Below are positions 8,496 through 10,485 of a stretch of DNA of 64,000 bases, piece by piece. The notes beneath the pieces are model-generated. The model was not told the DNA's origin. It ran no database searches and was given only the letters and a program-made list of their open reading frames with translations. The DNA comes from a virus. The first letter of the stretch is position 1, and each line of letters opens with the position of its first letter. Where the stretch lies: positions 26,553-90,552 of the IMG/VR virus record IMGVR_UViG_3300047318_000369; one strand, 5' to 3'. Position numbers and translations under genes: made by a program.

Positions 8496-9056
8496 GTGTC
8501 CAGTGTGACAGACCGCGACTTCATCACCGAGATGGCCGAGGCGGTCGAGGGTGCGATTCCCGCAGGTGACTACGTGGCGTCGATGGTTGCCGCCGACCTC
8601 GTGGAGCACCTGAGGGCGCAGGACCCGGAACTGCTGGCCGGGTGGCTGGACTTGAAGGCGGCGGTGATCCTCGCGGACGTCGTGGCCCGCAGGTCGAACA
8701 GCAAGCGGCAGGCGGCCCGGATCGGCGCCCCGCGCAGGGCGTTCGCCGAGGCGGCCCGCAGTTTCGCCGGTGGTGACGTCACGGCGTTGCACCCCTTCGC
8801 CGCCGAGTACGTGGTCGACGAGGACAACACCCGTCGGACGGTGGCGAACATGACCGCCGACGACTGCCGGTTCGTCGCCTCGAAGTACGAGGACGCGGCG
8901 CGGATCTCGAAGTTGGAGGCGGCGTTCCACCGGGCGGTCGGCAAGAAGATCGGCGGCCAGTTGGTCGGCGAGGTCTTCACAGAGGCGCAGTACCTGGAGA
9001 TGTACCGCTCCGTCACCCAGCAGGGACCGCGAGCGATGCCGCGAGCAGCGGCATGA
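8496..9056 (+). CDS. Hypothetical protein preceding the C-rich array (186 aa)
   Basis: The GTG at 8496 is chosen for the strong AAAGGAGGG site at 8483-8491; an ATG at 8412 overlapping the previous stop would add 28 residues. The product is helical and soluble, rich in Ala and Arg, with no recognised domain. It ends at the left border of the periodic C-rich array (9096-9785) and belongs to the same rightward operon as the RAMP-like gene beyond it. Confidence 0.65.
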   Translation: MSSVTDRDFITEMAEAVEGAIPAGDYVASMVAADLVEHLRAQDPELLAGWLDLKAAVILADVVARRSNSKRQAARIGAPRRAFAEAARSFAGGDVTALHPFAAEYVVDEDNTRRTVANMTADDCRFVASKYEDAARISKLEAAFHRAVGKKIGGQLVGEVFTEAQYLEMYRSVTQQGPRAMPRAAA

Positions 9057-9095
9057 CGAAGAGCACCGGCCGACACACCGCGCCTCACACCTCCT

Positions 9096-9785
9096 CGACT
9101 ATTCACGCCCAGGCGTTTCCACCCCACTCGGAACGACTTCCCGACGCCACGCGACCGCACCTCATCCCAACTCTTGCCGACTTTTCTTTTCGCCACCGCG
9201 CCAGCCTCCACACCCCATGCCGACGGATCAACCCGGGCCGTTACTTCCCGCCCCTCGTCGACTACGCGCCCCTACGCAGGGCTTCCCGCTGCCGCCCCAC
9301 CCAGCCGACTTTTCTGCCCCCTCCTGCCCCGCGCAGTTCAGCGCTACCCATGCCGACTATCCGTCGCTTCACCAACCAGCCCGCTCTGACTCGCGTCGAC
9401 GTGCCAAGCCCACCCTCACCACGCCGTACCGACTGCCCGACACGAGGCCCGGCCACCCACCCCATCCCGTGCCGACTTCCCAATCCGGCTCGTCGCCGCA
9501 CAGTCCGAGCCAAGCCCTCCGACACCCCCGCCCCGGCCTGGACCAGCCACCCCGGCCCAGCTCCGACCGACTACCCGGTCCGGCTCGCCACCTCGCCACA
9601 CATCACGACTCGCTCCAACCGACATGCCATCTCGATCCGCCTCGACCCGAGCCCGCCCGCAACGACTGCTCTTCCCGTCTCGCCTCGGCGCCCACCGTCC
9701 CATGACGACTTGCCAACCCTCCGCAGGCCAGGCCTAGCCGACTACCCATTCCAACTCAGCCCACTCCGCCGCAGCCCACACGACC
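9096..9785 (+). repeat. C-rich periodic array: CGACT element about every 43 bases (17 units)
   Basis: CGACT, usually within GCCGACTNYCC, occurs at 9096, 9134, 9178, 9259, 9306, 9354, 9430, 9473, 9568, 9606, 9663, 9706 and 9739, with one-base variants at 9221, 9397, 9519 and 9781. Intervals are 33-57 bases, mean about 43. Three 60-base lines counted by hand had 28-30 C and only 11 G each, so a rightward RNA would be C-rich and largely unstructured. Elements fall in all three reading frames, which argues for selection on nucleotides, not protein. The next gene encodes a RAMP-like RNA-binding fold. It is not a classical CRISPR: the repeats are too short and degenerate. Confidence 0.7.
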
Positions 9786-9813
9786 GCCCAGGTCACCGAA
9801 AGGAACTCACCAC

Positions 9814-10485
9814 ATGACCAGCATCTTCGCCAGCTTCACCGACAAGGCGTGGCCCCACCGCTTCCACGGCACCATCCGCGTGAAGAACATCGCAGGCGGC
9901 ACGCCGACTGACCCGAAGGTCGCCGAGGGCTGGCTGCGAACCAAACTCGCCGACAAGGACGACCTGATCCGCGAGATGGTCGCCCAGACCATGGTCGACC
10001 GAGGCGTCACCGCCGACGAGGCCGCGAAGCTCGTCGACACCAACAAGCACCTCAACGGCTTCCGTCGCGACGAGGACGGCTTGTACATCGAAGGCCGCCA
10101 GTTGAAGGCCGCGATCAAGGAAGCCGCGTCCGTCGCCCGCTCCGTCGACAAGCTGAAGTCCCGCTGGGGCTCCACCAACAAGGGCGTCCAAGGCTTCGTC
10201 GCCGAACACATCATGGTCGTCGAGGACAAGCTCCACCTCGGCGTCACCGAGCCCACCGGCGTCCTCCAGTCCTTCCCGAAGAACCCGCGCACCGGCCAAA
10301 CCGGTATCCAGTACACGGAGTTCATCGAGACCGCCGAGTTCGACTTCACGGTCATCTCCGACTACGCGTTCACCGACGAAGAGTGGGCCATGCTCTGGCT
10401 CACCGGCGAACAGCAGGGCGTCGGCGCTTCCCGCTCGCAGGGCTTCGGCAGGTACGAGGTCATCAAGTGGGAGGCCACCGCATGA
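9814..10485 (+). CDS. RAMP-superfamily (Cas7-like) protein next to the periodic array
   Basis: ATG 9814 behind AAAGGA; 223 residues. The C-terminus carries GVGASRSQGFG (residues 202-212), an exact fit to the RAMP glycine-rich loop GhGxxxxxGhG, followed by a beta strand. Residues 89-106 (LYIEGRQLKAAIKEAA) resemble the IPGSSLKGALR segment of Csm3/Cmr4-type proteins, and 170-181 (FIETAEFDFTVI) the strand before the loop. RAMP proteins bind single-stranded RNA, often as filaments. No Cas10, Cas6 or Cas1/2 is in the window. It heads a coupled operon (ATGA with the next gene) directly after the array. RAMP fold likely; role unknown. Confidence 0.7.
   Translation: MTSIFASFTDKAWPHRFHGTIRVKNIAGGTPTDPKVAEGWLRTKLADKDDLIREMVAQTMVDRGVTADEAAKLVDTNKHLNGFRRDEDGLYIEGRQLKAAIKEAASVARSVDKLKSRWGSTNKGVQGFVAEHIMVVEDKLHLGVTEPTGVLQSFPKNPRTGQTGIQYTEFIETAEFDFTVISDYAFTDEEWAMLWLTGEQQGVGASRSQGFGRYEVIKWEATA

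Follow-up and report, generated by a model that had tools for sequence, protein, structure and literature searches.

A 64,000-nucleotide stretch of viral DNA (hereafter the window), taken from an IMG/VR virus record of 90,552 b, very probably encodes a VIPR-type RNA-guided DNA-recognition system carried by an actinobacterial temperate phage, with a silencing role that we propose by analogy with VIPR. The reading is based on the array format, its conservation, a predicted protein fold and sequence matches between guides and targets. As described in the main text of its report, VIPR (Viral Interference Programmable Repeat) consists of a phage RAMP protein (Vipr), an accessory vap gene and vrRNAs made of 9-16 YNNGG repeats; NN recognises dsDNA with a 1-nt skip, mostly at the codon wobble position, and the targets, which lie in competing phages and other VIPRs, are silenced (PMC13142463, bioRxiv 2026). 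In the window, an integrase gene and a repressor-like gene lie to the left of the array, and the locus has the following features.

8496-9056, + strand: conserved partner gene, a vap-like accessory with an all-helical predicted model; its start codon is uncertain (8412 or 8496).
9091-9794, + strand: putative guide array built of NNNNC pentamers, in which NN is followed by an S-C-C-like scaffold, and interrupted by 18 CGAC phase steps; its C-rich strand coincides with the gene strand.
9798-9804, + strand: probable ribosome binding site of the RAMP gene, read from the sequence, immediately 3' of the array.
9814-10485, + strand: gene for a Vipr-like RAMP protein of 223 aa, with a Csm3/Cas7-like model and a Gly-rich loop GVGASRSQGFGRYEV.

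The sequence-only reading had reported 17 CGACT-type sites over 690 b, more than expected by chance, lying in all three reading frames and separated by C-rich, G-poor sequence. These observations held. Thirteen exact CGACT copies span 9096-9739, with the gaps between them filled by further CGAC sites, and 500 dinucleotide shuffles of 9096-9785 gave a mean of 1.7 exact copies and a maximum of 6. The base composition of 9096-9785 is C 341, G 135, A 113 and T 101. The spacing of 33-57 b was correct for its regular part (33-48 b), and the 57-b gap turned out to be split by a 14-b step at 9606-9620. Beneath this spacing, a C recurs every 5 nt through the array, and each CGAC introduces a 3-nt phase step. 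Twelve of the 17 CGAC spacings measure exactly 5k+3 b, so the spacing of about 43 b is a by-product of the 5-nt register; the remaining five have indel steps. The unit at 9606-9623 measures just 14 b, does not keep the register, and is perhaps a deletion remnant.

The array was parsed by dynamic programming: a step of 5 accepted any base and favoured C as its last, a step of 3 was taken at CGAC, and steps of 4 or 6 were penalised. The parse of 9091-9794 took 125 steps of five and 18 of three, needed 5 indel steps, and had C at 99% of the anchors. Its score of 174.3 compares with a mean of 47.3 (sd 7.9, maximum 72.5) for 200 dinucleotide shuffles, and with 41.2 for the best array-free stretch when 711-b stretches were taken at 350-b intervals along both strands. 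Across 9053-9817, a frame open for 254 codons would fit a protein-coding gene. Most unit lengths shift that frame, however, Pfam and PHROG searches of its translation found nothing, and a related phage (L012) does not align with it at the corresponding place; we therefore give this explanation almost no credence. The array leader GGCCGACACACCGCGCC (9053-9100) is identical in the window, in L012 and in the Streptacidiphilus carbonis prophage (L060), and similar in L014, and the units that follow it differ.

Scans for the RAMP gene recovered 8 loci and then 40, which include those 8 or the same contigs again; a further scan returned nine loci, three of them new (L054, L058 and L059). Among 50,697 annotated phage records, one, Mae-JY09, carries the gene. 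Bacterial genomes yielded no relative with the first query alignment and six RAMP loci with a better one, including S. carbonis (86%) and an Acidimicrobiaceae MAG, where the array format is still present next to a RAMP only 24% identical. Mae-JY09 (L001:6720-7110) has the same C-scaffold array and both genes; it is recorded as a Microcystis phage, a host label that may need checking because its GC-rich sequence looks more like that of an actinobacterial phage.

A C-skewed, CGAC-bearing stretch in the orientation of the RAMP gene was present at 34 of the 36 loci examined, within about 600 b of the gene at 33 and 1.8 kb away at L031; no such array was found at L033 and L035. This criterion is loose, making five other short calls in the 64-kb window, and the 5-nt parse is stricter. 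Hand-delimited arrays of 33 loci and the window all parse as pentamer chains, with C at 79-100% of the anchors, and the format is absent near the RAMP gene of L063 and L064. In these 34 arrays (24,381 b, 752 CGAC), the frequency of C at +8, +13, +18, +23, +28 and +33 from CGAC is.84,.83,.82,.80,.79 and.75, and.30-.55 at the remaining offsets from +9 to +37. In 2385 clean pentamers, the first two positions are near-uniform despite the mostly GC-rich phages (p1: A.27, C.25, G.25, T.23; p2: A.26, C.27, G.25, T.22), and the other three form a scaffold (p3 C.49, G.23; p4 C.62; p5 C.95). The modal unit has 7 pentamers, and TA is preferred in the pentamer that directly follows CGAC (T.51, A.45). The format is thus kept among homologues while the bases between the fixed ones vary, which is what the comparison proposed in the sequence-only reading had looked for.

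The array precedes the RAMP and partner genes in some loci and follows them in others, or it lies on several sides of them. In L034 (3366-3911) and L037 (5693-6217), the partner gene is downstream of the RAMP gene and is followed by the array. A hairpin-like GC-rich stretch lies between the RAMP stop codon and the downstream array in L043 (5840-5880) and L030 (771-830), and may be a candidate processing or attenuation element, judging from its sequence. In the S. carbonis prophage array (L060:7510-7790), a run of N marks a place that was either masked or left as a gap in the assembly. A DNA-binding array, such as the origin, partition or packaging site that had been suggested earlier, would also fit with short sites recurring regularly in noncoding DNA. 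Such a role found no support: the position of the array around the two genes varies while its strand sense is constant, and a 5-nt register with variable NN would have no role there. We regard it as highly unlikely.

Units differ between close relatives. The window and L012 are 86-88% identical in the flanks, and their arrays cannot be aligned. L043 and L047, with flanks about 88% identical, have some units in common in the same order, and others are inserted or replaced; whole units also reappear in different phages at other array positions. We compared 18 unit pairs from different phages that were at least 78% identical over p1-p4 (131 pentamers), excluding pairs of lower identity. Mismatches at p1 to p5 numbered 7, 7, 25, 21 and 9. 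NN thus differs at 14 of 262 positions versus 46 of 262 for p3/p4 (Fisher p 1.4e-5), a value that is indicative only, because one trio accounts for three of the pairs and one pair joins neighbouring units.

The array RNA has no match in Rfam, and no structured 3' tail was recognised between the window units. None of 20 shuffles folded less well than the array RNA (z 1.93), and this weak folding, with the C-rich, G-poor composition, would be expected of a Rho utilisation site or a Rho sponge coated by the RAMP protein. Rho would need neither the exact 5-nt register nor uniform or conserved NN, and a Rho site would not match integrase genes under the skip rule described below; we consider this explanation very unlikely.

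A single model of the 223-aa RAMP protein was predicted with pLDDT 77.9 and pTM 0.72; residues 47-80, which are perhaps a thumb, have pLDDT below 50. Foldseek matched the model to a type VII effector chain with an E value of 1e-7 and a modest TM of about 0.5. VIA-align gave Z 10.8 (rmsd 4.3 over 162 residues) against the type VII chain 8yhd_O and Z 10.3 (rmsd 3.3 over 138 residues) against the Csm3 chain 6nbt_B. Csm3 is a Cas7-family backbone protein, and we take the type VII effector chains matched by the model to be Cas7 as well. Residues G202, G204, R207, S208 and G212 of the G-loop are invariant in 35 homologues. As modelled, the protein appears to have an RRM core and the G-loop without a second RRM, the composition that characterises Vipr. 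By sequence, the resemblance is faint: Pfam searches of the 35 homologues returned no RAMP family, the best PDB match was a Cas5 with an E value of 0.25, and the profile aligned weakly, although collinearly over 139 columns, with SUSP1-clade Vipr (hhalign E 0.0027, probability 11%). Pfam searches of nine window proteins found no cas family.

Of 41 records searched, two of them SUSP1 pieces, 28 have a homologue of the partner gene. Apart from the SUSP1 pieces, 11 records gave none: in seven, the RAMP gene starts less than 400 b from the start of the locus, and in L031, L040, L048 and L049, the partner is truly missing at the search cutoff. The partner stands beside the RAMP gene as an accessory vap gene stands beside vipr. 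Its predicted model is helical (pLDDT 85.9), and a fold search against the PDB found no match (best E 5.2).

For target searches, the first two bases of each pentamer (p1p2) were read with a 1-nt skip between successive dinucleotides (NN-skip-NN-skip). Two window units gave matches in integrase genes.

9310-9354, + strand: unit 6, which has nine pentamers and reads TTxTGxCCxTGxCGxAGxAGxTAxAT; its matches lie in integrase genes of other elements.
9667-9706, + strand: unit 15, which has eight pentamers and reads TGxTTxGTxGCxGGxCCxGTxAT; its matches lie in integrases of a second family.

Unit 6, whose code comprises 18 bases over 26 nt, was chosen from near-hits among 313 guides. In 15 records, the only places with at most two mismatches were two integrase genes (L069 and L075), each matching at 17 of 18 bases; the reversed pattern had one match at that threshold in the same records. 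Exact matches to unit 6 occurred in two stretches of all IMG/VR contigs, both in integrases, where the target lies opposite the codons for RMYLLRHGH with the skips at codon position 3. Exact matches in 297 genomes of the S. carbonis family numbered two, both in integrases at RMYLLRHGH, and the reversed pattern had none. One of the genome matches encodes the same protein as L080, so that three distinct integrases match unit 6 exactly. PHROG confirmed the integrase family of the targets.

Unit 15 had two exact matches in 200 genomes and its control none. Both lie in homologous integrases at ITGPATKQ with the skips at codon position 3. By our own estimate, a 16-base code should match about once by chance in 200 genomes, and the weight of unit 15 therefore lies in the homology, the common site and the wobble phase, and not in the count. 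Two matches alone prove little, because unit 14 also gave two exact matches with none for its control; these lie in unrelated genes, a kinase-like and a regulator-like ORF as judged by eye, and were accordingly treated as chance. Units 3, 7 and 9 had no exact match in 200 genomes each, and unit 11, allowing at most two mismatches in 17 records, had 8 places versus 9 for its control. Near-hits of unit 11 and of L025 unit 3 (15/16) were dropped, as their codon phase was inconsistent. None of the 14 window guides with at least six pentamers has an exact match in its own phage genome; the closest self-matches are 14/18 at best for unit 6, 12/16 for unit 15 and 11/12 overall. Most guides are without a target found in these searches.

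Guides of other phages gave matches of the same kind. L020 unit 1 matches terminase genes of L023 and L038 at 16 of 16 bases over the Walker A codons RGPHGLG, with the skips at position 3. L054 unit 10 matches six rival RAMP genes, out of 42 examined, at 16 of 16 bases; without its first pentamer, it matches 17 RAMP genes, its own included, at 14 of 14, and the skips fall at position 3 wherever the RAMP frame is reported. In 19,700 trials with shuffled guides, seven exact matches to any RAMP gene were obtained, and five or more genes were matched once. The RAMP gene of L054 itself agrees with unit 10 at 14 of 16 bases and fails at the first dinucleotide, a difference that, from the sequence, could possibly serve to spare self. 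L012 unit 2 matches L107 at 14 of 14 bases with the skips at codon position 3, and one guide from L043/L047 had no match in IMG/VR.

The rule was also applied to many guides at once. With the arrays masked, 148 guides of at least eight pentamers were searched against 3.13 Mb on both strands. At skip 1, three guides had exact matches (window unit 6, L020 unit 1 and L054 unit 10), versus 4 in 1776 shuffled guides; the database contained contigs fetched for the unit 6 match, which makes its exact hits there true by construction and leaves two independent guides. Independent evidence for unit 6 comes from the searches of 15 records, of IMG/VR and of 297 genomes. Skips 0 and 2 gave none and skip 3 gave one, L048 unit 25, which was taken for a leftover array copy. 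Exact skip-3 matches in an unmasked scan were likewise set aside, being mostly unmasked copies of the same arrays. In the masked scan, other choices of NN (p2p3, p3p4 and p4p5) were at no point more than one guide above their single shuffled set. Early p1p2 scans with skips 0-3 over 415 kb and 680 kb were underpowered and showed no clear excess over shuffles. Against RAMP genes, 307 guides gave 1, 1, 1 and 0 exact matches at skips 0-3 (shuffled: 0.4, 0.3, 0.2 and 0.3), among which only the skip-1 match, L054 unit 10, has at least seven dinucleotides; against partner genes, the 307 guides gave none. Because an independent count of two is small, the strength of the decoding lies in the homologous genes, the wobble phase and the conserved motifs. 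Four guides (window units 6 and 15, L020 unit 1 and L054 unit 10) match sequences in the manner of the 1-nt skip rule with the wobble base skipped.

The likeness to VIPR, as far as the main text of PMC13142463 describes it, extends to a phage-borne RAMP and one accessory gene beside long intergenic arrays, to pentamer repeats with two hypervariable bases and a conserved triplet, and to a 1-nt skip over the wobble base with targets in rival phages and rival VIPR genes. The scaffold and the array layout differ from those in that text: the triplet here is S-C-C on the gene strand, whereas that of VIPR is GGY, and about 17 short guides separated by CGAC form one tandem array, in contrast to separate vrRNAs of about 100 nt with a 3' tail. 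The helical accessory without a PDB match is a further difference. The report distinguishes seven VIPR types and mentions a 'related consensus' and 'staggered arrays' with its figures; the window system may be one of these types. Neither 'Streptomyces' nor 'integrase' occurs in its main text. SUSP1, our positive control, has GGYNN tracts on the RAMP strand, as do five of the six SUSP1 relatives examined, the tracts being absent from L154. In a relative of the SUSP1 RAMP (38%; L153:1446-3008), several tandem GGCNN tracts flank the RAMP gene on both sides; a T run closes some of them and GGTTAGGCCATTGCGGGCGA others.

The functional guide might instead be the opposite strand of the same system, with the pentamer GG-S-NN and a boundary reading GGGTAGTCGGC. 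Its scaffold would be GGS, in L048 mostly GGC, close to the published GGY/NN, and GGGTAGTTAGTC follows two of four SUSP1 tracts. On the other hand, the RAMP gene and the C-rich arrays point the same way in 33 of 36 loci (in L034 and L037, a C-skewed stretch was called on the other strand too), and the GGY tracts of SUSP1 lie on its gene strand. Because the window array reaches the RAMP ribosome binding site, transcription of the C-rich strand is to be expected in any case. The target matches cannot separate the strands, as the target is double-stranded, and neither can the terminator-like site that follows the L009 array, which scores on each. On balance, we think the opposite strand less likely than the gene strand to be the guide.

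With class 1 CRISPR-Cas (type III-A Csm3 and type VII effector chains), the system shares the RAMP backbone fold and interchangeable guide units. Unlike a CRISPR repeat-spacer array, it has no long direct repeats, and the 5-nt register continues through the units, with a code that reads 2 of 5 nt; near-identical repeats with contiguous spacers are not found, recurrence being limited to CGAC and weakly conserved bases beside it. The sequence-only reading had suggested a guide or decoy array, distinct from CRISPR, for a Cas7-like RAMP. The array format among homologues, the Csm3/Cas7-like fold and some matches to rival genes favour a guide array, but one whose reading unit is 5 nt and not about 43 nt; CGACT, thought to be a filament site, instead marks the boundary between guides, and the content resembles a noncontiguous DNA-targeting code more than a decoy.

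Taking the gene strand as the guide strand, we propose the following mechanism. The 0.7-kb array would be a row of about 17 guides, each a run of NN-S-C-C pentamers in which NN is read and the three other bases form a scaffold for successive RAMP subunits; CGAC would reset the 5-nt register between guides. The array would be transcribed, probably from the gene strand given the operon layout, and presumably processed at CGAC. RAMP subunits would then coat one guide, one per 5 nt, exposing the NN pairs, and the guide, read as NN-skip-NN-skip, would pair with dsDNA, the skipped base being the codon wobble in coding targets. The target would be silenced, as reported for VIPR. Because two window guides aim at integrases of other prophages or integrative elements, the likely effect would be to hinder integration or excision of rivals.

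We advance more tentatively, as somewhat short of an even chance, that this is a distinct VIPR type not yet described in print as far as the main text of PMC13142463 goes. Its code would use a C scaffold, its arrays would be in tandem as in CRISPR, and phages would acquire, lose and exchange whole guide units. The guides would be directed at highly conserved coding motifs of rivals (the integrase RHGH box, the terminase Walker A and the rival RAMP gene), and self would be spared by a single dinucleotide. If true, this would imply some process by which new NN words enter a scaffold that stays fixed.

A noncontiguous pentamer code has thus been recovered independently, in actinobacterial phages and on a different scaffold, and natural guide-target pairs are now available for testing. 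Targets at catalytic motifs with the wobble base skipped would be hard for rivals to escape. The matches suggest a phage that aims at the integrases of its rivals, which would make prophage exclusion RNA-guided. That closely related phages differ in their units leads one to ask how new guides come to be written into a 5-nt scaffold that is itself fixed, a possible step towards CRISPR arrays.
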